Positions 6,936 through 46,697 of a stretch of 64,000 nt of DNA are shown piece after piece. Source of the DNA: a virus. A model generated the notes under the pieces. That model was not told the DNA's origin and ran no database searches. It was given only the letters and a program-made list of their open reading frames with translations. The translations under genes and the position numbers were made by a program. The DNA lies in IMG/VR virus record IMGVR_UViG_3300038441_001651, positions 1 to 64,000 of that record; one strand, given 5' to 3'. Position 1 is the stretch's first letter, and every line of letters starts with the position of its first letter.

Positions 6936-7303
6936 AACTGACTCTCTCCCACAAAGACCTGGAACTGGCCCTGATCGAATCGCTGCGCGCCAAAGGTATG
7001 TCCGCCTTCGAACCAGGCAAGGCCGCCGTCGATTTCTCGTTCAAGCGCGGCACCAAAGAGCTGATCTGCGAGCTGGACACCGAAGGCAAGCCAGCCGCTC
7101 CTAAAGCCCCTGCGGCCGCCGAGCATAAGCCGGCTACTGTCCCGGCTGCCAGCGAGCCGGTTGCTCCGGCAGCCAAGCCAGAAGTTGCTGCTGAGTCGGC
7201 CACCGAAGCGCCAGCCGAGGCCCCTACTGAACAGCCTGCCGAACATCCGGTTGAATCCCCTGCCGCCACTGTCACCGGTGAAGAAGAAAACCTGTTCGGT
7301 TAA
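6932..7303 (+). CDS. Small protein with Pro/Ala/Glu linker and SSB-like tail
   Basis: Unrecognised 123-residue protein. Residues 1-50 form a compact domain (MKLTLSHKDLELALIE, VDFSFKRGTKELICEL). The next 60 residues are a low-complexity Pro-Ala-Glu linker. The end is TGEEENLFG, very close to the SSB ending GEEVDSLFG encoded at 5778. This layout (fold, disordered linker, acidic hydrophobic tip) is that of an SSB-like or SSB-partner protein. The ATGA overlap couples it to the resolvase gene. Function is inferred only from the shared tail and neighbours. Confidence 0.65.
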   Translation: MKLTLSHKDLELALIESLRAKGMSAFEPGKAAVDFSFKRGTKELICELDTEGKPAAPKAPAAAEHKPATVPAASEPVAPAAKPEVAAESATEAPAEAPTEQPAEHPVESPAATVTGEEENLFG

Positions 7304-7311
7304 TCGTGCCT

Positions 7312-7329
7312 GCCCCGGGAAACCGGGGC
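7312..7329 (+). terminator. GNRA-loop hairpin
   Basis: Seven-base-pair stem GCCCCGG/CCGGGGC with a GAAA loop just after the SSB-tail gene. It is followed by TGTTTGCGAGG, not a strong T-run, so it may be a weak terminator or an mRNA stabiliser. Confidence 0.5.
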
Positions 7330-7346
7330 TGTTTGCGAGGTAAGCC

Positions 7347-7571
7347 ATGAAGCTGCATTGGCATTTGCTCTCGTTCTCGGTACCTGAAGCGGGCCGTTAT
7401 GACCCCTTCAGCTTGTTCGTGAGCACGAAGCATCCAGGGATCACCATCCCGCAAATTAACGCTGCCCGCGACAATGGCAACGTTCCTTCTACGGCCGTAC
7501 TGCAGACCATATCTTCACTGGGCAAATGGACCCAGGAAGAGTTTGCTGGCCAACAAGAAACCAAGGAATAA
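7347..7571 (+). CDS. Hypothetical protein, 74 aa
   Basis: Unrecognised small soluble protein, MKLHWHLLSFSVPEAG onward, with no motif I can name. A GAGGTAA sequence about nine bases upstream supports ATG 7347. The gene is packed between the hairpin at 7312 and the TerB-like gene, with three bases separating its stop from the next start, so it is likely a real member of this operon. Confidence 0.65.
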   Translation: MKLHWHLLSFSVPEAGRYDPFSLFVSTKHPGITIPQINAARDNGNVPSTAVLQTISSLGKWTQEEFAGQQETKE

Positions 7572-7574
7572 AAC

Positions 7575-8018
7575 ATGCTGGGTAAACTCGCTGGACGTCT
7601 CTTCCGCGGCGCCAAGAAAGTGGAAAACCGCGACCTGATGGAAGCCATCGTTGGTGGTGGTTTGCTGGTTGCAGCCGCCGATGGCGAGATCGAAAAAGAC
7701 GAGCTGACCAAGCTCGAAAAATTGATCTCGGGCAACGAAAACCTGAAGCACTTCGGCGCCGAAATCGGCAAAACCATCCGCCGCTTCTCCGACCTGCTGG
7801 ACGGCGATTGGCTGGTAGGTCGCTCGAAGATCCTGCGCGAACTGCGCGACATCCAGGGCAACGACGAACACGTCGAAGACGTGGTGCTGAACATCCTGGC
7901 CATCGCCAAAGCCGACGGCGAAATCGAGCCGGAAGAGCGCAAGGTGATCGAAGAAGTTGCGCGTGAGCTGGGCTACCGCCTGAGCGAAGAACACTTCGAA
8001 ATCCGCAAGGGCGCCTAA
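7575..8018 (+). CDS. TerB-like domain protein
   Basis: A 147-residue protein of the TerB-like fold. Two EF-hand-like helical repeats are visible: VAAADGEIEKDELTKLE near residue 35 and IAKADGEIEPEERKVIEE near residue 115, each with acidic clusters that could bind metal. TerB proteins are named from tellurite resistance operons but are widespread and associated with membrane or stress complexes; no tellurite function is implied here. It is followed one base later by a small membrane protein, a pairing that may be functional. Confidence 0.75.
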   Translation: MLGKLAGRLFRGAKKVENRDLMEAIVGGGLLVAAADGEIEKDELTKLEKLISGNENLKHFGAEIGKTIRRFSDLLDGDWLVGRSKILRELRDIQGNDEHVEDVVLNILAIAKADGEIEPEERKVIEEVARELGYRLSEEHFEIRKGA

Positions 8019-35610: not shown

Positions 35611-35631
35611 GCTGGGTACCAGCTCTTTTTT
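35611..35631 (+). terminator. Intrinsic terminator, GTA loop
   Basis: GCTGG, loop GTA, CCAGC, then TCTTTTTT. It closes the first early transcription unit. Confidence 0.75.
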
Positions 35632-35790
35632 AAGAGCACACACGAAGCACACATCAAAAGCACACAATCCTTCCCCTTTAGACAGTAGGTGAGGAAGATC
35701 CCTTTCTTCCCTTCCCCTTTCAGTCAGATTCCCCTACATGTGAGGGAGAGTGAGGGAGATTGGAGGTGAAACAGTGTGTTTGCAGTGAGT

Positions 35791-35904: not shown

Positions 35905-36132
35905 ATGGACTATCTGCTGTTACCTAACGGAACTGTGCTGGCACTGAAAGCATTGGACAGTGTTCCTTCTGTTATAAGGCGTGCCAATGAACAACGTGCT
36001 ATATGTACCTATTGGTACGTCGCAGAGAATGATCAATGGTGTTGTGCCTTCAATGAAGCGCGTGGAGGCATTGCAATTGATCGCTCCTGTGTACCTGATG
36101 TTGTATTGCTTGCACATACGATGGTGACTTAA
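35905..36132 (+). CDS. VPE-family early protein 1, 75 aa
   Basis: First of eighteen diverged relatives. N-terminal strand pair MDYLLLPNGTVLALKAL, centre TYWYVAENDQWCC with paired tryptophans, and end SCVPDVVLLAHTMVT carrying the family signature. GGAGG at 35895-35899 sets ATG 35905. The gene is promoter-proximal to hairpin 2. No known domain is recognised; the small beta-plus-helix layout suggests a protein-binding factor acting early on the host. Confidence 0.75.
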   Translation: MDYLLLPNGTVLALKALDSVPSVIRRANEQRAICTYWYVAENDQWCCAFNEARGGIAIDRSCVPDVVLLAHTMVT

Positions 36133-36375
36133 ATGGAATACATGCTGCTGGCTGATGGTACGGTGAAGTCTTTCCCGTGCCTATCTACAGGCACTCAGAT
36201 CCTTGAAGCTTTGAAAGCCCATAACGGAGTTAGCCATTACTGGTGGGACGGTGTTTACGAGAACACTTGGCGGGTGTGGCATATAACCCACCAAATTGGT
36301 GCCCGTAATGGTGGTTTCCCTGTAAAAGAAGAAGATGTCCCTGAAGTTATCAAACTTGCTCGAGTGCTGGAGTAA
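36133..36375 (+). CDS. VPE-family early protein 2, 80 aa
   Basis: Begins directly after the previous stop (TAAATG). Shows YMLLADGTVKSF near the N-terminus, HYWWDG and NTWRVWH in the centre, and EDVPEVIKLARVLE at the C-terminus. Close in pattern to proteins 1, 3 and 4, which form one contiguous block. Without its own ribosome site, it probably depends on re-initiation after gene 1. Function unknown. Confidence 0.75.
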   Translation: MEYMLLADGTVKSFPCLSTGTQILEALKAHNGVSHYWWDGVYENTWRVWHITHQIGARNGGFPVKEEDVPEVIKLARVLE

Positions 36376-36377
36376 CT

Positions 36378-36623
36378 ATGGCTGACTATTTGTACTTTGC
36401 TGATGGCACTGCCGAAGCTGTTGAAGAACTCGATATGCGAGCCCTGCGTGAGCGTATGCATATGCGTAGTGCTGAAGCCACTTACTGGGTGTTTGCGAAT
36501 GATGAGACCCAGAAGGCTGGTTGGGTCATGTGTACTATGCGTATGGCCACCAACCGCAGCATAACAGAAGATGAAGTGCCTGAATCTGTACGCATGCTGC
36601 ACTTAATTGCAGGAGGCTGCTGA
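36378..36623 (+). CDS. VPE-family early protein 3, 81 aa
   Basis: YLYFADGTAEAVEEL at the start matches the family DGxV strand pair; TYWVFANDE then GWVM supply the central Trp pair; DEVPESVRMLHLIAGG is the signature, here with Leu replacing the usual Ala. GGAG-type spacing is poor, so coupling from the upstream gene (two-base gap) is likely. No function assignable. Confidence 0.72.
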   Translation: MADYLYFADGTAEAVEELDMRALRERMHMRSAEATYWVFANDETQKAGWVMCTMRMATNRSITEDEVPESVRMLHLIAGGC

Positions 36624-36884
36624 ATGGAAGCTGAGTACCTGCTGAAAGCCAATGGCGAAGTCCTTGTCATAGCGGCCTCTGCGAACTGGGAGCAGCTACA
36701 GATGCTGCTCACCCTCACAGGTGCCCATTCGTATTGGTTCCCGCGGTGGAATGATGAAGATGAGCCAGATAGCCTATATCGGGACTCGTGGGGCATGTTC
36801 CTGCCTGGGGACGATAGTTATGCCATCGTAAAAACCCCGCAAGTACCTGAAGTTATACGCCTAGCCCATCTAATGGTGGGCTGA
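36624..36884 (+). CDS. VPE-family early protein 4, 86 aa
   Basis: EYLLKANGEVLVI, central HSYWFPRW and SWGMF, acidic loop NDEDEPD, and PQVPEVIRLAHLMVG at the end. AGGAG is present inside the end of the previous gene. It closes the first array block; its stop codon lies inside the stem of hairpin promoter 3, so transcription signals overlap the coding end. Confidence 0.75.
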   Translation: MEAEYLLKANGEVLVIAASANWEQLQMLLTLTGAHSYWFPRWNDEDEPDSLYRDSWGMFLPGDDSYAIVKTPQVPEVIRLAHLMVG

Positions 36885-36899
36885 CCTTCGGTCATGTGA
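36882..36899 (+). promoter_or_regulatory. Hairpin early promoter 3 (vRNAP type)
   Basis: TGACC, loop TTC, GGTCA, then TGTGACG. Five-pair stem, template loop GAA, predicted +1 near 36899. It would drive the 36931 gene, which has its own AGGAG. Confidence 0.6.
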
Positions 36900-36930
36900 C
36901 GAAAGTTAAACCAAATAAACAGGAGTTCAA

Positions 36931-37230
36931 ATGTTCTTTGAAGCTATCTTCACCATCTGCATGACCGACCCTGCGACTGAAGTTACTACTTGTCGCATCA
37001 TGGTCACTGAAATGACTCAGCTCGCCAGTTCTAACACTCAATGTGTGCAAAAAGCTGAGATGTTGTCCAAGAGTGTGGGCGCTGCTGCACGTAAGCAGTT
37101 CCCACAACTGAAGTTCAGCGGTGAGGCTGTGTACTGTGGCAGTACCGCTACTTACACCGAAAGTATCACCAAACTAGTCAAGTCGGGCTATGAAATGTCC
37201 GGCTTCAAGTATGTACAGGAGCGGTTCTGA
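36931..37230 (+). CDS. Hypothetical early protein, 99 aa
   Basis: Unrecognised. MFFEAIFTICMTDPA... is beta-like, with several Thr and Cys residues, then a helix QLASSNTQCVQKAEML and a C-terminal region GSTATYTESITKLVKSGYEM resembling the small single-domain phage proteins that end in a short Lys/Tyr helix. AGGAG at 36921-36925 supports ATG 36931. Its stop overlaps the next start by one base. Confidence 0.68.
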   Translation: MFFEAIFTICMTDPATEVTTCRIMVTEMTQLASSNTQCVQKAEMLSKSVGAAARKQFPQLKFSGEAVYCGSTATYTESITKLVKSGYEMSGFKYVQERF

Positions 37231-37499
37231 TGAAACCAAGTGAAATGATCCAAGCTGCTATCGACAGTGGTATCTACAAAAGCAGTCTTTACATGTGCAA
37301 CGCTGTAAAGAATTTGCCGGGCGCGCGGTACCTAGATGTATGTGATTGTCAAATGGCCATCACTAAACGCATTTATCCGTTTGCTACGCTGCCTGCGTAC
37401 ATCGCACATCGTGATGGCATGAAGGGATACCCAAACTACCAACAGCGTGTGGAGTTTTGGCTGGAGTTCATCGAAGAACTGAAAAAGCAAAACCGATAA
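37230..37499 (+). CDS. Hypothetical early protein, 89 aa
   Basis: Unrecognised 89-residue protein. MKPSEMIQAAIDSGIYKSS looks like a helical N-terminus; a cluster CNAVKNLPGARYLDVCDCQM holds three Cys; the C-terminus is helical (VEFWLEFIEELKKQNR). ATG 37230 shares a base with the previous stop, preceded by AGGAG. Composition suggests a soluble regulatory or inhibitory protein, but that is only a guess. Confidence 0.68.
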   Translation: MKPSEMIQAAIDSGIYKSSLYMCNAVKNLPGARYLDVCDCQMAITKRIYPFATLPAYIAHRDGMKGYPNYQQRVEFWLEFIEELKKQNR

Positions 37500-37578
37500 T
37501 CTAAAAATGCAAATTTGACGATTTCGGCGAGAAAAACGATAAACCAAAGGGATAGATTCCCGCAGTTGAGGTATAGCA

Positions 37579-37779
37579 ATGCCGTTCCCACTCTATGCAA
37601 TCCTCGTTGCCCTTTCCGTTGTGGCCTGTATCGAAATATGCGTTAGCTTTCTCGAATGGGTCCAAGAAAACTGGTATGGCCCACACCCGAACACAAAACC
37701 GTATCAGTGGAAGCGCATGTGCATCATTGCGCTGGTGCTGATCACTACCATGCTGTTGTTCAAGTGGGGTCAGCCATGA
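37579..37779 (+). CDS. Two-span membrane protein, 66 aa
   Basis: MPFPLYAILVALSVVACIEICVSF forms one hydrophobic segment near the N-terminus; MCIIALVLITTMLLFKWG forms another at the C-terminus; a polar loop of about 20 residues lies between. GAGGTA precedes ATG 37579. Its end overlaps the next start as ATGA. It could be an early inner-membrane protein; no specific family is recognised. Confidence 0.65.
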   Translation: MPFPLYAILVALSVVACIEICVSFLEWVQENWYGPHPNTKPYQWKRMCIIALVLITTMLLFKWGQP

Positions 37780-38078
37780 TCAAGCTGCATGAGGTGCCGC
37801 CGGATATCTACGCAGAGCACCTTGCCCACCAGAAGTCCCAGGTTGCCCGGGCATTGCGGCTGTATGTGCGCACGAAGGGCTTCACCTACAGGCATGGCGC
37901 CTACCTCGTAGGCTGCAGCTATAACGCCTTCGGCCATGTCATGCGTGGTGAGGAGTGGAGGGTATCCTTCGACCTCATCTTCCGTATGGCTACCGTGTTC
38001 GGTATCAAAATCCACATTGGGGTGTCTCTGCCCCAGAACGATGTAACCTGTAAGACCGCTGGCCCTTCGGGCCTGTAA
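37776..38078 (+). CDS. XRE-like helix-turn-helix protein, 100 aa
   Basis: The region YRHGAYLVGCSYNAFGHVM followed by RVSFDLIFRMATVFGIKI (about residues 37-75) looks like the four-helix XRE DNA-binding fold, suggesting an early transcription regulator. The N-terminus is helical and basic. ATG 37776 overlaps the preceding stop. The last 18 bases coincide with hairpin promoter 4, so the protein end is constrained by the promoter. Confidence 0.6.
   Translation: MIKLHEVPPDIYAEHLAHQKSQVARALRLYVRTKGFTYRHGAYLVGCSYNAFGHVMRGEEWRVSFDLIFRMATVFGIKIHIGVSLPQNDVTCKTAGPSGL
38061..38078 (+). promoter_or_regulatory. Hairpin early promoter 4 (vRNAP type)
   Basis: GGCCC, loop TTC, GGGCC, then TGTAAAGG. Same stem size, loop and downstream TGTAA as promoters 1 and 2. 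Predicted +1 near 38078. It would transcribe 38134 onward. Confidence 0.65.
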
Positions 38079-38133
38079 AGGCATACGTCTGCCACAAAAT
38101 CCCTTTCTGATCCAATATTCTGGAGTATTTCCC

Positions 38134-38475
38134 ATGGCCGTTACCCGTAACCAAGATCGCAACAACGCCCCTGCTGCCCGTACTGAGCGTGAGCCAAGCC
38201 AAGCCAAGAAGACCCTAGGCTTCTTCAACATCAACATCCCTACCGTCGGCGGTACACCGATCCGCGTCGATGCTGTACGCCTGATGGAAGGCACCAAGGT
38301 GCATGAGCAGCTGGCTGCATACCTCGGCTGCACTCGCCCCGGCGACGAGAAGTTGCAAGGTGAAGAGCTGGTGGCCGAGAAGGCCAAGCGTCTGGCTGAA
38401 GTGGTCTCCAAGCTGGAGTTCAGCTTCAACCCAACCCGTACCGAAGAAGAGTCCCTGCTGGCTCTCGGCGTCTGA
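38134..38475 (+). CDS. Hypothetical early protein, 113 aa
   Basis: Unrecognised. A disordered basic start (MAVTRNQDRNNAPAARTERE) is followed by a beta-like segment (FFNINIPTVGGTPIRVDAVRL) and a helical C-terminal half (ELVAEKAKRLAEVVSKLEF). GGAG upstream and GC-rich optimal codons suggest high expression. It forms a unit of its own between hairpin promoter 4 and the strong hairpin at 38483. Confidence 0.72.
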   Translation: MAVTRNQDRNNAPAARTEREPSQAKKTLGFFNINIPTVGGTPIRVDAVRLMEGTKVHEQLAAYLGCTRPGDEKLQGEELVAEKAKRLAEVVSKLEFSFNPTRTEEESLLALGV

Positions 38476-38482
38476 CCTACCT

Positions 38483-38506
38483 GGCCACTACCTTCGGGTG
38501 GTGGCC
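38483..38506 (+). terminator. UUCG-loop terminator-like hairpin
   Basis: Ten-pair stem 38483-38492 with 38497-38506 (one G-U) around TTCG, followed by TACCTTTTGG. Likely attenuates transcription after the 113-aa gene. Confidence 0.65.
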
Positions 38507-38527
38507 TACCTTTTGGAGAGCAATCCA

Positions 38528-38614
38528 ATGGTAAAGATCATCGCTTCGTGCATGCTTCGCGTAACCCTGTACCTTTCCGTCTGCATTTCCCTCTTTGCAC
38601 TGTTTATTAACTAA
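38528..38614 (+). CDS. 28-aa single-span membrane protein
   Basis: Tiny protein MVKIIASCMLRVTLYLSVC... with a span of about 20 hydrophobic residues ending LFALFIN. GGAGAGCAATCC precedes ATG 38528, the same leader wording as several other genes here. Its stop overlaps AAGGAG of the next gene, so the two are linked. Its size equals the 35522 protein but the sequences differ. Confidence 0.55.
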   Translation: MVKIIASCMLRVTLYLSVCISLFALFIN

Positions 38615-38624
38615 GGAGCTTCAA

Positions 38625-39365
38625 ATGTTCGGTGAAATCATTCAACTCGTTCCTCACATGGTCGGTTACGGCTTCACTGTGCTGCTTTCGTTGCTGGTGG
38701 GTTACCATCTGCGCGAAAAGCGGCATGAGGTTAACCTGAATGCGGCAATCGCCAACTTCGAAGAAGGCTGTGCTGGTCTTCGCGCAATAAACCAAGAGAA
38801 TCTGAAGATCGAGCGCGCTGTGCGGCGTGAGCTGGAAATCTCCGTACTCAAGTGCGGTGAATCCATTGAAAAGATGGCTCAAGAGCTGGAAGCTGAGAAG
38901 AGGCGTGCTGACTTCAACGATGGCTTCCGTAGGGCAATTGTTGAACCATTGGTAGCCCTACGTCTATGGAATACTGGAAACATGGATGTTCGCCCGTCTT
39001 CACTGCTCAATGTGCTTGTAGCGCACGCCGAAGACTGTGTATTGAACCCCGAAATGAGCAAACGAGCGAAGAACCTGTTCATTCGTGGTGTACGTAAGGG
39101 CGCCAAGCAAGGGCGTGAGCAGATGGCCAAGCTGATGCAGAAGTCCATCGACAATCAGGCTGCGACCATCGAAAGCTATGGCCGTGCTTACCAGATTGCT
39201 GAAAAGCGTCGTGCTTTGTTCCGTATTGGTGTGAATAACGTCCTGAAGGACAAGATTGGTCTGCCTGCTGTACGCCGTAGCATACTGAATGGTATCGCAG
39301 AGGAAGTAGCACGTCTGCATGACGTGGAAGCGCGTAAAGAACTCACCAAAGCTCAAGGAGAATAA
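38625..39365 (+). CDS. Membrane-anchored coiled-coil protein, 246 aa
   Basis: N-terminal membrane span about residues 10-27 (MVGYGFTVLLSLLVGY), then a basic turn and a long coiled coil from about 30 to 110 (EEGCAGLRAINQENLKIERAVRRELE). The rest is helical and basic (LMQKSIDNQAATIESYGRAYQIAEKRR). AAGGAG at 38613-38618 sets ATG 38625. The topology suggests an inner-membrane scaffold or sensor made early. It is followed by another membrane-anchored small protein, so they may form a complex. Confidence 0.72.
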   Translation: MFGEIIQLVPHMVGYGFTVLLSLLVGYHLREKRHEVNLNAAIANFEEGCAGLRAINQENLKIERAVRRELEISVLKCGESIEKMAQELEAEKRRADFNDGFRRAIVEPLVALRLWNTGNMDVRPSSLLNVLVAHAEDCVLNPEMSKRAKNLFIRGVRKGAKQGREQMAKLMQKSIDNQAATIESYGRAYQIAEKRRALFRIGVNNVLKDKIGLPAVRRSILNGIAEEVARLHDVEARKELTKAQGE

Positions 39366-39367
39366 CT

Positions 39368-39676
39368 GTGGAAGAAGCACTGATGATCGCGTTTGTCGCC
39401 CTGTTTATCCTGACCGTTGTCAAATTCGGTCGGGTTCTGTCGCAAAGCCAGAAAGGGAGTGAGATTCACGAATTACTGGGCATGAAGTTGGAAATTGTGC
39501 ACCAGATGCTGGGGAATTTCCCACAAAAGCGTGAAACCATCTGGTGTGATGGCGTCAAAGATGCTCAACAGCATCTCAATGCTCGTATTCGTGCTGGTAT
39601 CGCACATGCCTCGCTCTATGAGCGGGGTAAGCGCACTCACCGCATGAATCATGACGGTATCTTGGTGCCGGTATGA
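39368..39676 (+). CDS. Membrane-anchored protein, 102 aa, GTG start
   Basis: Starts at GTG 39368 seven bases after AAGGAG. Residues 5-22 are hydrophobic (LMIAFVALFILTVVKFG), the rest is helical and basic with a Trp/Cys turn (TIWCDGVKDAQQHLNARI). Topology parallels the 246-aa protein just upstream. It overlaps the following array gene by four bases (ATGA). Confidence 0.68.
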   Translation: MEEALMIAFVALFILTVVKFGRVLSQSQKGSEIHELLGMKLEIVHQMLGNFPQKRETIWCDGVKDAQQHLNARIRAGIAHASLYERGKRTHRMNHDGILVPV

Positions 39677-40095
39677 CCAAAAATACCAATAAAGAAGGTA
39701 TGGCACAGGAGCGTCTGCTTAAAGGCGTTCCTGATGAAGAAATGGCGCAATTTTGCGATGTCTGGGCAAAAACGGCAGACCCTATGTACTCGACAAATAA
39801 CGTGGTACCTCGTGCGTACATTGAACAGGAAGTGATAGTTGCTGCTTTCAAAAATGGTGTCGTACTAGAGACCGAGACCAAAGCCCGGTTTAAGCTGGGT
39901 GACTGGGCTCAAGCTGCACATAAGAAGCACGGGCCTTGCCGCGTGATTGCCTTTAAACCAGGTGAGCTGATGTGGCGTGAGGTACGCTGGAAGAATGCCA
40001 ACAGCGGTACTCTGTACCGTAGGCCTTCCTTCATGACGCTCAATCCTGCGCAAGTGCCTCAAGAGCTACAGCTTGCTGCATTAATGTTGGGGTAG
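39673..40095 (+). CDS. VPE-family protein 5 with extended N-terminus, 140 aa
   Basis: Longest member of the family. Residues 1-60 are an extra helical lead (EGMAQERLLKGVPDEEMAQF); the family-like part follows, with GDWAQAAHKKHG and VIAFKPGELMWREVRW, ending NPAQVPQELQLAALMLG. The signature has Gln in place of Glu/Asp. It overlaps the preceding gene and leads the second array block (39673-41072). The extension could be a fused second domain. Confidence 0.68.
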   Translation: MTKNTNKEGMAQERLLKGVPDEEMAQFCDVWAKTADPMYSTNNVVPRAYIEQEVIVAAFKNGVVLETETKARFKLGDWAQAAHKKHGPCRVIAFKPGELMWREVRWKNANSGTLYRRPSFMTLNPAQVPQELQLAALMLG

Positions 40096-40097
40096 TT

Positions 40098-40346
40098 ATG
40101 GAATATCGTTACTTCTTTACCAAAGACGGCGCAATCCAAGGGGTTGAGACGCTTAATGTAACGACCTCGTTCATATACTTGCAGAACATAGGTCAAATGT
40201 ACGAAGGGTGCCACTGCTGGGCTAAGTTAGGGAATACCACATGGTATTCCTGCCCAGCTGCGGGCTTTGCGTTCACCCGCATGGAAGCTCACCAATCATG
40301 GGAAGAAGTCCCTGATTACGTTCGAATGGCAGAGGCTTTGTTATGA
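40098..40346 (+). CDS. VPE-family protein 6, 82 aa
   Basis: EYRYFFTKDGAIQGVETL, centre HCWAKLGNTTWYS, signature EEVPDYVRMAEALL. Inside the gene (40231-40250) is a 20-nt inverted repeat with eight-pair arms, which could form an mRNA hairpin. Start two bases after the previous stop. Function unknown. Confidence 0.7.
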   Translation: MEYRYFFTKDGAIQGVETLNVTTSFIYLQNIGQMYEGCHCWAKLGNTTWYSCPAAGFAFTRMEAHQSWEEVPDYVRMAEALL

Positions 40347-40573
40347 GTCTGACTGTTTTCATCAACTGTGGTAACGCATGTGAGGTGCGCGACATCCCTG
40401 AGTTTGACTGGAAGGCTCTGGACGCAGTTTGTGCAGAGTTTTCTGAGAATCACCTATGGGCGCACCTGAGTACGCAAGGATGGTGTATCTACTCCCGTGT
40501 TCATAAGCGCTGGAAGGTTATAGCATCCAGTGCTGTACCGGAAATCATCAAAATGGCGAGGTTGCTGCATTGA
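40343..40573 (+). CDS. VPE-family protein 7, 76 aa
   Basis: Overlaps gene 6 by four bases (ATGA). SLTVFINCGNACEVRDI at the start departs from the DG motif but keeps the strand-turn-strand pattern; centre HLWAHLSTQGWCIY; end SAVPEIIKMARLLH. Short and probably one domain. Its stop shares bases with the TTG start of gene 8. Confidence 0.7.
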   Translation: MSLTVFINCGNACEVRDIPEFDWKALDAVCAEFSENHLWAHLSTQGWCIYSRVHKRWKVIASSAVPEIIKMARLLH

Positions 40574-40815
40574 TCGGCCCTTGGTACGTAGTTCGTGATG
40601 GAGACATCATTGACGTGCTTGAAAAGGCAACGCTCGACTCTAAGGGGTGGATAAACTACCGAAAACGCATAAGCGAGCATGAAAATGCAGTAGCTTGGAA
40701 AAAAGACAAAGAAGGATGCTGGCATAGCTTACGAAGCTCTGATGCTCTTAATGGGCATTGGGTATCCTTCGTTACCCCACCAACTTGTGTAAAAATGGCG
40801 GATATTCTGCAATGA
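40570..40815 (+). CDS. VPE-family protein 8, 81 aa, TTG start
   Basis: Starts at TTG 40570, overlapping the stop of gene 7 as TTGA, which implies termination-dependent re-initiation. GPWYVVRDGDIIDVLEK opens the family pattern; AVAWKKDKEGCWHSL is the Trp pair; the signature is degenerate, TPPTCVKMADILQ, with Pro-Pro and Thr in place of P-E. Unknown function. Confidence 0.68.
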   Translation: MIGPWYVVRDGDIIDVLEKATLDSKGWINYRKRISEHENAVAWKKDKEGCWHSLRSSDALNGHWVSFVTPPTCVKMADILQ

Positions 40816-41072
40816 CTACGTGGTATATCATAGAAGACGACATTATTGTGCACGTTTTCTCTGCTTCGGCGCACGGAGAAGTCAGTACGTTTGATAGGCG
40901 GGAAATACTACGCAAGAGTTATCCTAACGCCACAGCATGGCTCTGCAAGCCTTGGCTTGATGAGGAACTACGCTGGTACTCGCTCCCATGCAAATATGCG
41001 CACATGGCTTTGTGGGATCACGCACAACCTCCCGAAGTTTTACAAATGGCTAAATTACTGGAGATTTCGTAA
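40812..41072 (+). CDS. VPE-family protein 9, 86 aa
   Basis: ATG 40812 overlaps gene 8 by four bases. TTWYIIEDDIIVHVFSA, centre ATAWLCKPW with LRWYSLP, end AQPPEVLQMAKLLEIS. It is closest in N-terminal pattern to gene 8 (WYxxxDxDIIxV), suggesting a local duplication. It is followed with one-base overlap by an unrelated 144-aa gene. Confidence 0.7.
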   Translation: MTTWYIIEDDIIVHVFSASAHGEVSTFDRREILRKSYPNATAWLCKPWLDEELRWYSLPCKYAHMALWDHAQPPEVLQMAKLLEIS

Positions 41073-41506
41073 TGAAAGAACTGAAACGTGGTGACATGAT
41101 GGAAGTTTTCGGTGAAGTGGATCACTTCATCGTTGCTGTGGGGAGTAAGCTGCGTAGCGAAACCAAAGAGCTGATTATGCTCAACGGTCTCTCCGGGGTT
41201 CTGGGTACTAAATACCCTACCCTACCGGCTGCTATGGGAAAGTGGATCGCTGAGACCTGTGGTGATGGCGGTGCCTTCTACCTGCGTTGCGCAGGCAAGG
41301 TGGGCATCATACAGAACATGGATCTGCCTCGCAATGGGGTGAACCTCTCCTACATCGGAGCTGGTGTGCTCATGCTGTCCCAGCTGGCACGCCTGCACTC
41401 CGAGAAGAAGTACGCCCTCGAATGGCCTGGCCACACCGAGCCTGAGTGGTTGCTGAAGAACATGTTCGATAAGCTGCCGGCTAACGTGGAGGTCTGGAAG
41501 CCATGA
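41072..41506 (+). CDS. Possible macrodomain-like protein, 144 aa
   Basis: Not a VPE-family member. MKELKRGDMMEVFGEVDHFIVAVGSKL resembles the opening of ADP-ribose-binding macrodomains (GDxxxV..VDxIV); GVLGTKYPTLPAAMGKW resembles their Gly-rich first loop and YP turn; the end PGHTEPEWLLKNMFDKLP resembles the last helix. The conserved Asn expected after IVNA is absent, so activity is doubtful. If real, it could erase host ADP-ribosylation. Codon use here is more GC-rich than in neighbours. Tentative. Confidence 0.55.
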   Translation: MKELKRGDMMEVFGEVDHFIVAVGSKLRSETKELIMLNGLSGVLGTKYPTLPAAMGKWIAETCGDGGAFYLRCAGKVGIIQNMDLPRNGVNLSYIGAGVLMLSQLARLHSEKKYALEWPGHTEPEWLLKNMFDKLPANVEVWKP

Positions 41507-41739
41507 TCAGGGGCGCGGTGTCAATCCTGTTCAACCCCGTTACCCTTACCGTAGAGCGCTTCCACGAAGGCTGGCTCAGGACAGCCGAATGGGGCGCCAA
41601 CACCCTCTATTACCTAACTGGGTTTGGGGAAGGTGAGCCGGGCCGCTGGTTTTACTACAGCAGCGAGCACGACGGCCGTGACATCAAGTTCGACAACATG
41701 CCGGAGGAGGTGCGCTTGGCGTACCTGTTAAGCCAATGA
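41503..41739 (+). CDS. VPE-family protein 10, 78 aa
   Basis: ATGA overlap with the previous gene. AVSILFNPVTLTVERF replaces the DG hairpin; centre LYYLTGFGEGEPGRWFYYS; signature DNMPEEVRLAYLLSQ. GC-rich like the preceding 144-aa gene. It opens a run of seven consecutive members to 43293. Confidence 0.68.
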   Translation: MIRGAVSILFNPVTLTVERFHEGWLRTAEWGANTLYYLTGFGEGEPGRWFYYSSEHDGRDIKFDNMPEEVRLAYLLSQ

Positions 41740-41999
41740 ATGCTGTAGATCCTTGGGGTAATCCTTATCCCATAAGCAAGTTTGAACCCGTATCAATTAC
41801 ATGGGACTACGTGAACGAGGTTGTGGTGGAAAAGAACCACTTCAGCCTGTTCTCTACTACGTGGGAGTTTCTATATTCCCCGCAGGACCCTTTCGCCATC
41901 TCTGAGTGGAAGGTTTGCCGTTGTCCGGGCGATGAATCTTGGGTGCATGAGAGCGACGTGCCCGAAATGGTTCGAATGGCCTTATTGGTGTGCACATGA
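41736..41999 (+). CDS. VPE-family protein 11, 87 aa
   Basis: Overlaps gene 10 by four bases. Starts MNAVDPWGNPYPISKFEPVS; centre TTWEFLYS and SEWKVCRC; signature SDVPEMVRMALLVCT. The N-terminal extension is Pro-rich and unlike its neighbours. No function known. Confidence 0.68.
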   Translation: MNAVDPWGNPYPISKFEPVSITWDYVNEVVVEKNHFSLFSTTWEFLYSPQDPFAISEWKVCRCPGDESWVHESDVPEMVRMALLVCT

Positions 42000-42211
42000 A
42001 AGCAAAACAGATTGGTTTCTGCCGAGTTACTCAAAGTTTGGTCACGGATAGTAAGATTCTGGATATTCCGTATCTTCAAGATGATATGGATGTTTACAGC
42101 AAGACCTCCATGGGCCCTTGGAAGGTATGGGCGCCTGAGTACCAGTGTTACAAGATCATTCACGAAAATGAGGTCCCTGACGTAGTTAAAATGGGGGTAA
42201 TGCTGCTATGA
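41996..42211 (+). CDS. VPE-family protein 12, 71 aa
   Basis: Smallest member. ATG 41996 overlaps the preceding stop (ATGA) and is preferred to GTG 41990. KAKQIGFCRVTQSLVTDSKI, GPWKVWAP in the centre, and NEVPDVVKMGVMLL, with Gly in place of the signature Ala. AT-rich relative to upstream genes. Confidence 0.66.
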   Translation: MKAKQIGFCRVTQSLVTDSKILDIPYLQDDMDVYSKTSMGPWKVWAPEYQCYKIIHENEVPDVVKMGVMLL

Positions 42212-42459
42212 GTCGTGTTCCTATTATCTTTAACAGCGTAAGCCAGAAAGTTATTCGTATAGAAAGCCTGCCTGAGCATAATCTAATTCCTGATGAATAC
42301 TTTCATGAAGTTGATATAAACGGGGAACTTACACTGTACGTGCATGTGACCGGACGAAAAGATAGTAAGGAGTGGCTGTGCTGGAACAAAAGGGCACAAG
42401 AATGGTTCCATTTTCCTAATCCGCATGAGCAAATCAAGCTTGCGAGGATGTTGGTATGA
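42208..42459 (+). CDS. VPE-family protein 13, 83 aa
   Basis: Overlaps gene 12 by four bases. RVPIIFNSVSQKVIRIESL then LYVHVTGRKDSKEWLCW and EWFHF; C-terminus NPHEQIKLARMLV, where the VPE part has become PHEQ but the KLARMLV helix is kept. Distinctly AT-rich. Unknown function. Confidence 0.65.
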   Translation: MSRVPIIFNSVSQKVIRIESLPEHNLIPDEYFHEVDINGELTLYVHVTGRKDSKEWLCWNKRAQEWFHFPNPHEQIKLARMLV

Positions 42460-42743
42460 AACGTGTACCTCACGTAACAAATAATGAACATATGGCCATC
42501 TACACCCTTGTGTTGGTCATTAATGGGCTGCCAGAGGTGTATAGGAACGAGCGAATTGACAATATCATCAATGAAACTCGCGTAGCCTACATAGAAGATC
42601 CTTTTATGCTTTGCTATATAAAAGACTCTAAGGGTTGGCGTAAAGGTGAGTGGTTTCATTCACAGAGACGATACTTCTGGGACTCTGTAGCAAACAACTC
42701 AGTTCCTGACATTATCCTACTTGCGGAGATGGTTGCACCATGA
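42456..42743 (+). CDS. VPE-family protein 14, 95 aa
   Basis: Overlaps gene 13 by four bases. An N-terminal lead (KRVPHVTNNEHMAIYT) precedes the usual strand LVLVINGLPEVYRN; centre GWRKGEWFHS and YFWDS; signature NSVPDIILLAEMVAP. AT-rich. Its KRVP/RVP opening resembles gene 13, so the two may be recent duplicates. Confidence 0.66.
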   Translation: MKRVPHVTNNEHMAIYTLVLVINGLPEVYRNERIDNIINETRVAYIEDPFMLCYIKDSKGWRKGEWFHSQRRYFWDSVANNSVPDIILLAEMVAP

Positions 42744-43030
42744 GTGCCTTGTGGGTCATCTTGAATGATGACAAAACGGAAGTTATTGAGGTGTTTACCT
42801 CTGAAGATTCAAATTCACAACCTTTTCAGGAGAAGTTCAAGAAACATAAAGCAGGCACCGTCTTTTGTCGCCGAGCCGAGACTTATAGCGTAAGAGTTAA
42901 CTGGTATTACAGCATGCATGTCTGGCATGACGTAACAAGGTGGGGTTACGGTGAGCCTGACCTGATTACATGGTCTGCATGCTATATCATCCCTGAAATA
43001 ATCAAAATGTTGGAGATCGTAAGCCAATGA
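42740..43030 (+). CDS. VPE-family protein 15, 96 aa
   Basis: Overlaps gene 14 by four bases. ALWVILNDDKTEVIEVF restores the DD-turn pattern; VNWYYSMHVWHDV in the centre; end CYIIPEIIKMLEIVSQ, with Leu for the signature Ala as in gene 3. A charged helix FQEKFKKHKAG sits between strands and centre. Confidence 0.67.
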   Translation: MSALWVILNDDKTEVIEVFTSEDSNSQPFQEKFKKHKAGTVFCRRAETYSVRVNWYYSMHVWHDVTRWGYGEPDLITWSACYIIPEIIKMLEIVSQ

Positions 43031-43293
43031 TGAAAGCTTTCAATGTGATAAACGGGGAACTGGTTGCCGTAGTAACTTCCGCAGGCTTCGACATGACAGC
43101 TACTGGTTTAGAGTTAGCGTTCCCCCACGGTAAAGTTTACCGTTGGGTATCTTCACTACCGATCGACTTTATCCCGTGGCGTGTCCTGGTGCGTAAGTTT
43201 CATAAGCATGGAAGAGATTACTATGGGACATTAATGCCCATAAAAGAAGTCGATTTACCTGAAGTGGTGCGCTTAGCGCACATGGTTTCGTAA
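43027..43293 (+). CDS. VPE-family protein 16, 88 aa
   Basis: Overlaps gene 15 by four bases. AFNVINGELVAVVTSAG, centre VYRWVSSLPIDFIPWRVLV, end VDLPEVVRLAHMVS. It is the last member before the RNA polymerase small subunit, which follows 23 bases later with its own AAAAGGAG. Confidence 0.7.
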   Translation: MMKAFNVINGELVAVVTSAGFDMTATGLELAFPHGKVYRWVSSLPIDFIPWRVLVRKFHKHGRDYYGTLMPIKEVDLPEVVRLAHMVS

Positions 43294-43316
43294 GATCAAT
43301 AAAAGGAGTTATATCC

Positions 43317-44246
43317 GTGAAAGCTACCCTTATGCTCACCGACGACATGCAAAAGGCAAACGAGTACCGCTTTGCCCGCCATCATGTCGATAAGTACATG
43401 CGTGATTACGTCTTGAATGACGTTGAAGTTATCCCGCTGCTGGATAAGGGTGTTGAGATACTCACTGAGTGGGTAAATACCGAATTCAGCTACGAAAGCA
43501 AGAACATCCGCGTATCCGCCCTTAAAGGCATGGATCTGCGTGAACTGGTCACCGAAGTAGTGGTGGCCTCGGCCTATTGCCAGCATGAAGAGCTGTTCAC
43601 CAGCTTCACTGCACGCATGGCCGGTATACTGGGCTGGGACGACAAGAAGTCGAGCATCACCACAGTGGCTGAGATCACTGCGGTGCTGTGCGATACTGAC
43701 CTGTTCGACCTGACCCAAGCAAACCGCTTCAGCTCTTGGAACATTCTCAGCAACATCACCTTGTCGCTGGAACTGCAGGAATACATAGCAAACTGTGCCT
43801 ACCTGCCCCCACTGGTGCATAAACCAAGTAAGCTGAGGCACAACCGCGATACTCCGTATCTGACCATCGGGCAAGACTCGGTGATCCTCAACAAGGGTCA
43901 CCACAACGACGACGTGTGTCTTGATGTGCTGGATTCCAAGAATGCTGTGGCTTTGTCGCTGGATTTGGAATTCCTCAGCACTGTCGAGGAAGAGCCCAAC
44001 AGCGAGCTGGATTCCCCAGAGAAACAGAACATGTGGTTGCGTATGAAGAAGCAATCGCATGAGTTCTACCTGCTGATGGCGAAGCAAGGCAACAAGTTCT
44101 ACCTGCACCACAAATATGACAAGCGTGGACGTATCTACGCTCAGGGCTACCACATTTCTACCCAAGGGGCTCCCTACAAGAAGGCGATGATTGAATTCGC
44201 CAATAAGGAAGCTGTAACTGATATCCCGCAGGAGTTCCAACTATGA
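43317..44246 (+). CDS. RNA polymerase II subunit 1 (N4 gp15-like)
   Basis: One half of the heterodimeric T7-like polymerase that transcribes middle genes in N4-like phages; 309 residues, starting at GTG 43317 after AAAAGGAG. It carries the region that precedes the catalytic motifs in T7 RNA polymerase, including YDKRGRIYAQG (D268, R270-R272), the DxxGR motif that contacts the template-RNA hybrid. Motifs A, B and C are absent here and present in the second subunit. In N4 the two subunit genes are adjacent; here five small ORFs lie between them. Confidence 0.92.
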   Translation: MKATLMLTDDMQKANEYRFARHHVDKYMRDYVLNDVEVIPLLDKGVEILTEWVNTEFSYESKNIRVSALKGMDLRELVTEVVVASAYCQHEELFTSFTARMAGILGWDDKKSSITTVAEITAVLCDTDLFDLTQANRFSSWNILSNITLSLELQEYIANCAYLPPLVHKPSKLRHNRDTPYLTIGQDSVILNKGHHNDDVCLDVLDSKNAVALSLDLEFLSTVEEEPNSELDSPEKQNMWLRMKKQSHEFYLLMAKQGNKFYLHHKYDKRGRIYAQGYHISTQGAPYKKAMIEFANKEAVTDIPQEFQL

Positions 44247-44431
44247 AACGCTTCATGCTGTTTGGTCGCGATTGTTATTATCCGGCAGGTGGGTGGCAGG
44301 ACTTCGAAGGAGACTTTGATACTGTCGAAGATGCTCGCGCGCATATCCTTGCTCAAGAGTATCGTCGTGATGCTTATGATTTGATCGACGTGGACACTAA
44401 AGAAGATCACTGGAAGGAGCTTAACCTTTGA
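44243..44431 (+). CDS. Hypothetical protein, 62 aa
   Basis: Overlaps the polymerase subunit gene by four bases. MKRFMLFGRDCYYPAGGWQDF followed by a helical part VEDARAHILAQEYRRDAYDLIDV. The pattern resembles small phage proteins of the type 'FxLFGRDxYYPxGG...D', a recurring short fold of unknown role. Its stop overlaps the next TTG start. Confidence 0.65.
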   Translation: MKRFMLFGRDCYYPAGGWQDFEGDFDTVEDARAHILAQEYRRDAYDLIDVDTKEDHWKELNL

Positions 44432-44541
44432 AAGAAGCGTGGTTTGAAATTAAACGGGCTGCCAAGGCCTTTATCATAATGTGCAAGGCATTCGAGAATG
44501 CTTTTGTACACACCCTTGAACAACCGGAGAAAAAGAAATGA
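44428..44541 (+). CDS. Small ORF, 37 aa, TTG start
   Basis: TTG 44428 overlaps the previous stop as TTGA, and the end overlaps the next ATG as ATGA. AAGGAG lies upstream. The peptide is basic and helical (KEAWFEIKRAAKAFIIM) with one possible amphipathic helix. Tight packing on both sides supports it being translated, but it is short. Confidence 0.5.
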   Translation: MKEAWFEIKRAAKAFIIMCKAFENAFVHTLEQPEKKK

Positions 44542-44654
44542 AAGAGATGAAACCAAAGCCTAAACCTGTGAAACAAGAACCTAAGGCTGTCCGCCGTGTT
44601 GGCGCAATGCGCTTCACCAAGTGTGGCACCTTCCGAGGTTTCAATTATGGCTAG
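44538..44654 (+). CDS. Small basic ORF, 38 aa
   Basis: ATG 44538 overlaps the upstream stop. Lys/Pro-rich start MKEMKPKPKPVKQEPK, then RRVGAMRFTKCGTFRG. Its last eight bases overlap the next VPE-family start. Likely a small nucleic-acid-binding or disordered peptide; support is mainly the overlapping arrangement. Confidence 0.5.
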   Translation: MKEMKPKPKPVKQEPKAVRRVGAMRFTKCGTFRGFNYG

Positions 44655-44940
44655 ATTGTTCATTAGGTACGAGCCAGTGGAATGTCATGTAGCTATTGGG
44701 CTTGGGCTTAACAGCTTCAAAGTGGATGCTCGCCATTTAACCGATAGAGGGTTGGATATTTGCAGGTACTCTATCGACCCCTGTTACGTGTGCTTTGTGC
44801 ATGAAGGTAAATGCTACGCAGGGCGTACATTTAACACATTCACCGCATTTGGTGAAAAAATTGTTAGTGTCTCATGCGTGCCATTCAACGATTATTCACC
44901 TGGCCAGAAAATGATTCTGGCTGACATGATACTGGGGTAA
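44647..44940 (+). CDS. VPE-family protein 17, 97 aa
   Basis: ARLFIRYEPVECHVAIG, centre CYVCFVHEGKCYAGRTF with several Cys, end YSPGQKMILADMILG, a diverged signature retaining the LADMIL helix. It shares the first 13 bases (ATGGCTAGATTGT) with gene 18, evidence for duplication. It sits between the two RNA polymerase subunit genes. Confidence 0.65.
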   Translation: MARLFIRYEPVECHVAIGLGLNSFKVDARHLTDRGLDICRYSIDPCYVCFVHEGKCYAGRTFNTFTAFGEKIVSVSCVPFNDYSPGQKMILADMILG

Positions 44941-44942
44941 CT

Positions 44943-45245
44943 ATGGCTAGATTGTATGTTGCAGGCGAGCTTGTGGATGCAAACTGGCCTGAGCCTAAAC
45001 GGACAAGTACAGGGAACCACGTTTACACCCGTTCGAAGCCGTGTTGGGACGAAAAGCACGATAATGATATCCGTGTGCTTGTTTTTACCCGGTCTGGTGA
45101 TTATGCCGTGTTTATCCCTAATGTTTACTGGGGCACTGCCCTAGGAAGGGACAAAGTGGAAGTATCATGGCACAGAGTGCATCATTCTAACCGTGAGCAA
45201 TATATTCCAGACGTTTTCCGTCTGGAGCGCATGATTCTCAATTAA
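44943..45245 (+). CDS. VPE-family protein 18, 100 aa
   Basis: ARLYVAGELVDANWPE, centre IRVLVFTRSGDYAVF, end QYIPDVFRLERMILN. Signature Ala is replaced by Glu. Starts two bases after gene 17 with the same opening codons. It is the last array member, ending 22 bases before the second polymerase subunit. Confidence 0.66.
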   Translation: MARLYVAGELVDANWPEPKRTSTGNHVYTRSKPCWDEKHDNDIRVLVFTRSGDYAVFIPNVYWGTALGRDKVEVSWHRVHHSNREQYIPDVFRLERMILN

Positions 45246-45267: not shown

Positions 45268-46521
45268 ATGAAATTCTATACCCCGTTCCAGTGGCTGTGT
45301 GTTGATATCGCAAACCAAGGCTATGATGACAAGAAACTGTTCGAAGAACGTGTTGAGTGGGTGAAGGAGAACTTCGCCCGCTTGCCGTACCTGAACACCA
45401 GCAAGAAAGAACGTCCGCTGTACCTGAAGGCTGTCAATGCCCTGTACCGTGCTTGCCGCGGTCAACAGATCGGTCACATGGTTGGCTTGGATGCAACGTG
45501 CTCGGGCATGTCCATCATGTCCGTGGTCACCAAGTGCTTCAAGGGCTGCCTGGCCACCAACCTGATCGACCCTGACAAGCGCAATGACGCCTACACCATG
45601 GTCACGGACGCTGCCAGCAGAATGCTGGAAGGCGACCTGATCATTGACCGTAATGACGCTAAGCAGGCCACCATGACCACGCTGTACGGCTCGCAGAAGA
45701 CTCCCCGGGAGATCTTCGGTACCGATACCGAGGAACTGGACGCCTTCTATGCTGGCTTGGTCGAGGTTGCCCCGCTGGCGGTAGAGTTGCTGGGTGACCT
45801 GCGTAACGCCTGGCAACCCTATGCGCTGGAACACCGCTGGGTGTGCCCAGACAACTTCAACGTCCGTATCAAGGTGATGCAGAAGGTTGAGGGTGAGCGT
45901 GTCGAGGTTGACGAGCTGGACGGTGCCACGTTCACCTATGACTATTACATCAATGAGGGTTCCAAGTCTGACCTGAAGCTGGTGGCCAACGTTACCCATT
46001 CGCTGGACGCCTACCTGCTCCGCTCCATGGAGCGTCGCTGTAACTACAACAAATCAGCTGTGACCAAGGCCCTGTGCCTGTTGCTGGATGAATACAAGCA
46101 CCGTAAATCTGGCTTCCACGTTGAGTGGCACCTCGGCGAAGCAGTCAATCTTGCGCAACAACTCATTGCTGTTTGGGGGGGTTGCGAGATGCCAGATGCA
46201 CGGCTGTTTGACGTGTTGAATGAACGCGATGTGCGCTTCATGGACGATAGGCATATCGCGCAGATGATTGCCTTGGCTGATCAACTGCTGGAACGCGAAC
46301 CGTTCGAGATCGTCACCGTTCACGATGAGTTCAAGTGCCACCCGAACAACTGCAACTGGATGCGCCTTACCTATGCACAGATCATGGCCGATTTGGCCCG
46401 TGCTCGCGTGCTGGAGGACATCTACGAGCAGATTACCGGTATGACCCCAACCTATGAGAAGAGCATGGACGGCGATGAGCTGGCTGCGCTGATTCTGGAG
46501 AGTAATTATGCGCTGTCGTAA
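45268..46521 (+). CDS. RNA polymerase II subunit 2 (N4 gp16-like)
   Basis: Catalytic half of the heterodimeric middle-gene polymerase, 417 residues. T7-type motif A is GLDATCSG (D75); motif B has R128, K132, M136-T137 and Y140-G141, the full RxxxKxxxMTxxYG pattern; motif C is TVHDEFKCH (H352-D353). Together with subunit 1 it makes a complete T7-like polymerase. AAAGGTGAG precedes the ATG. A strong terminator follows at 46666. Confidence 0.94.
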   Translation: MKFYTPFQWLCVDIANQGYDDKKLFEERVEWVKENFARLPYLNTSKKERPLYLKAVNALYRACRGQQIGHMVGLDATCSGMSIMSVVTKCFKGCLATNLIDPDKRNDAYTMVTDAASRMLEGDLIIDRNDAKQATMTTLYGSQKTPREIFGTDTEELDAFYAGLVEVAPLAVELLGDLRNAWQPYALEHRWVCPDNFNVRIKVMQKVEGERVEVDELDGATFTYDYYINEGSKSDLKLVANVTHSLDAYLLRSMERRCNYNKSAVTKALCLLLDEYKHRKSGFHVEWHLGEAVNLAQQLIAVWGGCEMPDARLFDVLNERDVRFMDDRHIAQMIALADQLLEREPFEIVTVHDEFKCHPNNCNWMRLTYAQIMADLARARVLEDIYEQITGMTPTYEKSMDGDELAALILESNYALS

Positions 46522-46660: not shown

Positions 46661-46665
46661 ATGAG

Positions 46666-46697
46666 CCTTCCCCCGAAAGGGGGAGGGTATTATTTTT
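46666..46697 (+). terminator. Strong terminator after RNA polymerase operon
   Basis: Nine-pair stem 46666-46674 with 46679-46687 and a GAAA loop, followed by TATTATTTTTTTC. The 46522-46741 gap holds only the micro-ORF and these hairpins. Confidence 0.92.

Follow-up and report, generated by a model that had tools for sequence, protein, structure and literature searches.

A tandem family of sixteen small proteins in the early region of an N4-like phage

Introduction

For most early genes of N4-like phages, a function has yet to be assigned. One locus raises the question of what such genes do in an acute form: it lies in a stretch of 64,000 nucleotides (hereafter the window), part of a 72,851-base IMG/VR virus record (IMGVR_UViG_3300038441_001651), where small genes of similar design crowd an N4-like early region marked by RNAP1 and RNAP2. 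The phage is N4-like, and its nearest GenBank relative is Pseudomonas phage phCDa (Schitoviridae, Shizishanvirus). phCDa infects P. fluorescens; the window phage itself is known from a metagenome. An original prediction, made from the DNA letters, had assigned 18 open reading frames (ORFs; here m01–m18) to a single tandem family, and their coordinates and sequences match those we read from the window. Are these genes one family, and what would a phage do with so many copies? We find that 16 early genes of unassigned role in one phage resolve into one predicted scaffold with testable gene positions, or slots. The genes of the window described below and the hairpin after RNAP2 lie on the plus strand.

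Results

Sixteen ORFs form one homologous family

In a leave-one-out (LOO) test, a hidden Markov model (HMM) built from the other 17 proteins was used to score the removed protein, its shuffles (300 full shuffles per protein) and 238 non-family ORFs of the window. The LOO scores of m01–m16 ranged from 10.9 to 35.9 bits. None of the 238 non-family ORFs reached these scores (their best were 3.7–7.8 bits), and a single full shuffle in 4,800, of m15, reached the real score. Judged by sequence, m01–m16 are one homologous family, and a membership of 18 is not upheld.

The resemblance had first been noticed at the C-terminus, where it might have been no better than that of shuffled helices. This comparison was run, and m01–m16 outscored their full shuffles, with the one exception of m15. 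When all but the last 15 residues were shuffled, the mean score dropped in every member; no shuffle in 300 reached the real score for m01, m02, m03, m06, m08, m10 and m12, 1–3 did so in six members, and 16–19 did so for m05, m15 and m16. Shuffling the last 15 residues alone also reduced the score. Since body and tail shuffles both cost score, the homology spans body and tail.

Profile–profile comparison with hhalign, in which six held-out true slots were set against eight conserved non-family early groups as controls, gave 57–86% for the slots and at most 0.8% for the controls. An HMM iterated through related contigs collected 117 members at an expect value (E) < 1e-3 after five rounds, none of them on the minus strand, and in the last round the best reversed decoy stood at E = 2. 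The proposed expansion by duplication is borne out by the LOO and iterated HMMs and by the tree described below.

Block 1 opens with m01 (75 aa; 35905–36132; 24.3 bits, 0/300 shuffles), whose ATG at 35905 is preceded by a strong Shine–Dalgarno (SD) sequence, TTGGAGGTA. It continues with m02 (80 aa; 36133–36375; 35.9 bits) and m03 (81 aa; 36378–36623; 35.5 bits), and closes with m04 (86 aa; 36624–36884; 22.9 bits), which retains VPEVIRLAHLMVG with no gene overlapping its end. Block 2 comprises m05 (140 aa; 39673–40095; 10.9 bits, 0/300 full shuffles, held-out slot hhalign 80.8%), m06 (82 aa; 40098–40346; 25.4 bits), m07 (76 aa; 40343–40573; 25.3 bits), m08 (81 aa, TTG start; 40570–40815; 24.8 bits) and m09 (86 aa; 40812–41072; 18.0 bits). 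In the slot alignment of m05, an N-terminal extension of ~50 aa precedes the family domain. Orthologs of this slot in three contigs (L010:7070-7504, L006:6612-7049 and L022:6503-6928) have a Cys-rich extension, CH....GC.G.CMS, that is possibly a metal site; the window copy is without it.

Block 3 opens with m10 (78 aa; 41503–41739; 15.6 bits, held-out hhalign 86.3%) and m11 (87 aa; 41736–41999; 24.2 bits, held-out slot 74.2%), followed by m12 (71 aa from ATG 41996, or 73 aa from GTG 41990; 41996–42211; 23.9 bits), which has orthologs in eight contigs at mostly 44–51% identity. It then comprises m13 (83 aa; 42208–42459; 13.8 bits, 0/300 full shuffles), m14 (95 aa; 42456–42743; 17.5 bits, held-out slot 63.1%), m15 (96 aa; 42740–43030; 12.7 bits, 1/300 shuffles, held-out slot 56.8%) and, last and immediately upstream of RNAP1, m16 (88 aa; 43027–43293; 17.6 bits, held-out slot 85.8%).

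The prediction of 18 members thus stood for m01–m16 in the LOO test but not for the two ORFs between RNAP1 and RNAP2. m17 (97 aa; 44647–44940) scored −0.3 bits, equalled or bettered by 69 of the 238 unrelated ORFs, and its slot profile gave 0.2% in hhalign; by these measures it is a conserved neighbour and not a member. It has five orthologs, 42–49% identical, and across six phages an invariant start, MARLFIR, and an invariant M.IL close to the end. m18 (100 aa; 44943–45245; 5.3 bits, 4/300 shuffles, hhalign 2.3%) is a possible diverged member, as yet unproven.

Gene coupling, conserved positions and predicted fold

Within the three confirmed blocks, 9 of the 13 family–family junctions are 4-nt overlaps, counting ATG 41996 as the start of m12. 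The description of the junctions as mostly 4-nt overlaps therefore applies to these nine, and the other four are gaps of 0–2 nt. The codons of the terminal helix often contain the ribosome-binding site of the next gene.

Conservation was counted by column over 101 family sequences. W at column 49 and P at column 70 each occur in 100, D/N at column 8 in 62 and G at column 9 in 50; other strong columns are 73 (hydrophobic), 75 (M/L), 76 (A), 78 (L/M), 37 (W or Y) and 63 (aromatic). This set confirms three features of the original proposal: the terminal helix, the tryptophans in the centre and the D/N-G turn. Taken together, the family signature (W49, P70-E/D71 and a hydrophobic C-terminal helix) and a LOO score above all unrelated ORFs mark m01–m16 as members and m17 as a non-member, with m18 marginal. 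N-terminal columns 1–2 are barely conserved (Kullback–Leibler value 0.36–0.42, versus 4.35 at P70). No conserved polar set fit for a shared active site was found among the columns of the 101 members, and the near-invariant positions (W49, P70, the turn and the helix hydrophobics) look structural. Most faces of the C-terminal helix are hydrophobic. The net charge of the 16 members ranges from −8 to +4 and is negative in 12, which disfavours a general nucleic-acid binder.

AlphaFold2 models were obtained for m02, from a 79-member alignment, and for m15, from only its eight slot orthologs, both with a predicted local distance difference test score (pLDDT) of 87.6. The m02 model (E, strand; H, helix) has E2–6, E11–14, H20–29, E32–42, E46–53, E62–64 and H71–79; the m15 model has E3–8, E15–21, H27–33, E41–46, E53–61, E75–80 and H86–95. 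The order of elements is the same, beta-beta-alpha-beta-beta-beta-alpha, for two models that are not fully independent, the m02 alignment also containing m15-slot sequences. The C-terminal tail of m02 is predicted as an integral helix (pLDDT ~93).

The best Foldseek matches of the m02 model in BFVD were phCDa family proteins, at template modelling (TM) scores of 0.86 and 0.74, and the m15 model matched a phCDa family protein at TM 0.89. Weak matches of m02 were also returned among proteins of the Litunavirus phages RWG and phi176 and of ZC08 (TM 0.41–0.59). In the PDB, Foldseek gave no match to the m02 model at E ≤ 1, VIA-align of the two models gave a best Z of 3.6 each, level with unrelated rows, and the family profile matched no chain sequence at E ≤ 10. 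A missing clear PDB match does not establish a new fold. Pfam, PHROGs, NCBIfam and PADLOC gave no family match beyond isolated weak hits, each by a member or two (best E ~0.005), and we found no paper that describes the family. The original view that no such family had been described is in keeping with these libraries.

Distribution and evolution of the slots

A whole-record HMM search gave 15 matches in the genome of the window, all at 35.9–43.3 kb, 9–12 in phCDa and four related contigs, and six each in Littlefix and 98PfluR60PP; with a larger iterated model, Littlefix-type genomes reach 7–8 members at E < 0.1. A search of Schitoviridae, as first proposed, thus returned significant relatives in phCDa-like and Littlefix-like phages only, in the same early region, but no family match at E ≤ 0.01 in 12 other records (including LUZ7, LIT1, ZC03, inbricus, phiA41, Presley, G7C and VCO139). 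Slot scans of viral contigs returned the same phages again, with one contig identical to the window across the overlap, and one scan of a prokaryote genome collection with the m05 slot as query gave no match.

Proteins of LIT1, LUZ7, ZC03 and KPP21 whose tails resemble that of the family, such as LVPPEIRAQSLL ahead of RNAP1 in LIT1, were tried as members and rejected as non-significant. LIT1 gp18, gp21 and gp22 (L014:5532-5879, 7131-7415 and 7419-7691), which flank RNAP1, form the paralogous pairs gp18–gp22 and gp21–gp22; the tails of gp18 (VPPEIRAQSLL) and gp22 (IPKELQALLTI) resemble those of the window family, with non-significant homology.

In the tree, the sequences of a slot from different phCDa-like phages are monophyletic in most cases, and the duplications are therefore old, most of them older than the split of these phages. 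Littlefix-type members form a separate group with modest support. Copy number in block 1 varies, with four in the window, three in phCDa and 0–2 in the others.

Compared with phCDa-like phages, the window has family orthologs of mostly 25–55% identity, against 85–87% for RNAP1. The gene-wide ratio of non-synonymous to synonymous divergence (dN/dS) has a median of 0.29 and a maximum of 0.77, and is below 1 in every comparison with 0.05 < dS < 2; the slots are under purifying selection. The divergence originally proposed is seen, and is strong, in the low identity of orthologs, but rapid divergence by positive selection is not, which we reject as its driver since no gene-wide dN/dS exceeds 0.77. 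Slots are kept even between phages whose synonymous divergence is saturated, and reading frames are intact in related contigs. As the slots are mostly monophyletic and under purifying selection, the copies are likely non-redundant.

A different source of variation is suggested by two close phages, L007 and L009, whose RNAP1 proteins are 98.7% identical and whose adjacent family slots range from 98% to 29% protein identity. The diverged slots (29–41% identity) have high dS, several being saturated, and near-identical slots lie alongside. Divergence of this size probably predates the split of the two phages, and recombinational replacement is therefore the simplest reading. This suggests that the strongest diversification comes from old, diverged alleles taking over fixed slots by recombination. 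In a mosaic test over pairs sharing RNAP1 at 90% identity or more, dS was > 1 or saturated in 55 of 88 family genes versus 29 of 90 other early ORFs (Fisher p 8e-5, the pairs not being independent).

Discussion

A proposed repertoire of early binding proteins

The account that we favour, and to which we give an even chance, is that the array encodes early binding proteins on one scaffold, for host takeover or counter-defence. One ancestral small-protein gene would have been duplicated repeatedly in the early region of this N4-like Pseudomonas phage group. Every copy would retain the core, namely the Trp residues, the D-G turn and a Pro-capped C-terminal helix belonging to the domain, and surface and loops would have diverged. 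Production would be joint and early in infection, with translational coupling of most of the genes, and the proteins would act by binding and not as enzymes. Each slot would probably have its own host target, for example a defence, restriction, transcription or replication protein, and exchange of slot alleles by recombination in the phage population would retune the set to local hosts.

Early transcription is expected because the array adjoins RNAP1 and RNAP2, and from the biology of N4 (PMC3715699). Early expression, binding, distinct targets and the counter-defence or takeover role are what we infer; the coupled genes, single scaffold, lack of a catalytic core, acidic charge, old slots and allele replacement fit a binding repertoire. 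A role in counter-defence or against host targets fits as well, and nothing favours a decoy mechanism specifically. We advance more tentatively, as a doubtful proposition, the fuller version in which the scaffold is a fold with no recognised solved relative, each of the ~16 slots meets a different host protein, alleles are shuffled population-wide and the unrelated arrays of other N4-like phages are independent.

Several points weigh against the binding repertoire. Structure prediction gave m02 and m15 the same element order, but Foldseek linked neither model to the phCDa orthologs of the other, and their predicted shared fold stands on HMM homology and element order. The genes in the mosaic test are short, its method is NG86 and its pairs are not independent; some spurious ORFs may also be left in its non-family set. 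Other small early genes reach similar protein divergence, so the family does not stand out by fast divergence. Finally, fixed gene order and coupling equally suit subunits of one complex.

That complex is the main rival, although we think it unlikely. The paralogs would be subunits of one hetero-oligomer, assembled co-translationally with the C-terminal helix as common interface; its role could lie in DNA internalisation or, with RNAP1/RNAP2, in early transcription. The nine 4-nt overlaps, the end of block 3 just before RNAP1, the fixed order of mostly monophyletic slots and the largely hydrophobic helix all speak for it. However, copy number and slot content differ among phages, and diverged alleles replace single slots beside unchanged ones, which is awkward for tightly matched subunits; moreover, no significant family member turned up in the 12 other Schitoviridae, whose RNA polymerases are of the same kind.

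We consider it improbable that the array mostly reflects turnover by duplication, neutral or under local selection, of cheap genes that are retained for mild host effects and have no common target theme. The unrelated tandem paralog families of LUZ7 and Presley look as if the region duplicates often, but turnover sits poorly with dN/dS below 1 in all family comparisons within the dS range given above, and with slots that persist, frames intact, despite saturated synonymous divergence.

More improbable still is virion packaging followed by injection, as with the T4 internal proteins, in which case the shared terminus would be a packaging or targeting signal. A signature common to one end, a variable body and several copies per phage would be expected of such a set, but here the entire domain is homologous and not the tail alone, the tail is predicted as an integral helix in m02, and the genes adjoin RNAP1/2 in the early region, away from structural genes. 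That the C-terminal motif is a DNA-level constraint, a by-product of encoding the next gene's ribosome-binding site and not protein homology, is next to incredible and we reject it: overlapping pairs do carry an SD close to the end, within [LM]-A-[RED] codons, but VPEVIRLAHLM and LPEVVRLAHMV are retained in m04 and m16, the block-end members that no other gene overlaps, and the V-P-E and body conservation falls outside the SD.

For the binding repertoire, pairs of near-identical natural phages with differences at single slots offer ready-made swaps with which targets could be found. If the slots were counter-defence proteins, the array would be a compact set of host inhibitors.

Landmarks of the early region

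RNAP1, a subunit of the N4-like heterodimeric RNA polymerase, lies at 43317–44246 (phrog_2166, E 4e-108), and the N4-like RNAP2 at 45268–46521, with 79–82% identity to the RNA polymerase of phCDa and close relatives. A strong intrinsic-terminator-like hairpin 3' of RNAP2 (46665–46688; a 10-bp stem, then ATTATTTTTT) is possibly the end of the early unit. Blocks 2 and 3 are separated by a non-family gene (41072–41506) with 57–65% identity to phCDa-like and 43–44% to Littlefix-like orthologs; its product weakly matches phrog_335, and proteins at the like position in other Schitoviridae (LIT1, LUZ7 and 98PfluR60PP) are annotated as phosphatase. Upstream of block 1, at 35620–35720, GCACACA repeats and a conserved stretch, GACAGTAGG...GAGGAAGA, occur in several related phages, possibly as a regulatory region. 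Hairpins with 3-nt loops were seen upstream, with no convincing candidate for an N4-type hairpin promoter.

Comparison with known systems

By analogy, the nearest working precedent would be the T4 internal proteins Ip1, Ip2 and Ip3, each of which blocks one GmrSD type without cross-protection (PMC12373910). As in the array, several small non-essential proteins per genome share one terminal signature (PMC12373910). Unlike the array, in which the conserved end is C-terminal, within the predicted fold, and the N-terminus is variable and carries no common signal, the internal proteins have an N-terminal packaging signal and are injected; the two were compared by description. Among the small viral inhibitors known as anti-CRISPR (Acr) proteins, AcrID1 of archaeal rudiviruses shows that closely homologous AcrID proteins can share almost no target contacts (PMC7689449). 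For the array family, inhibition is an analogy only, and its profile, as noted, has no sequence match to any PDB chain.

Closer in layout are tandem arrays in other Schitoviridae. The LUZ7 cluster gp87–gp115, 29 small genes reported without similarity to database entries (PMC3715699), is in our analysis one tandem paralogous family (NC_013691, record 68698-74345; L054:8699-14346). Support extends to 28 of the 29, each scoring above every unrelated ORF, and 27 score above every shuffle; the proteins are partly grouped in phrog_6063 and phrog_11216 and have no Pfam match. Like the window family, these are closely packed paralogous genes in tandem, beside an N4 gp69-like gene and the early region, but the proteins are shorter, with a consensus Y..L..KY.KE, and hhalign to the window family gives 0.8% over 10 aligned columns. 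In Acinetobacter phage Presley (L029:9760-12679), RNAP2 is followed by eight tandem small genes, seven of which are likewise homologous to one another, with a motif A+.NLLG and 0.1% in hhalign to the window family. A weaker set of possible paralogs was noted among the small early genes of Pseudoalteromonas phage pYD6-A (L031:1932-4344). Tandem small-protein families thus recur in Schitoviridae; those of LUZ7 and Presley show no sequence relation to the window family and suggest that these phages follow a general strategy, one that annotation gene by gene misses.

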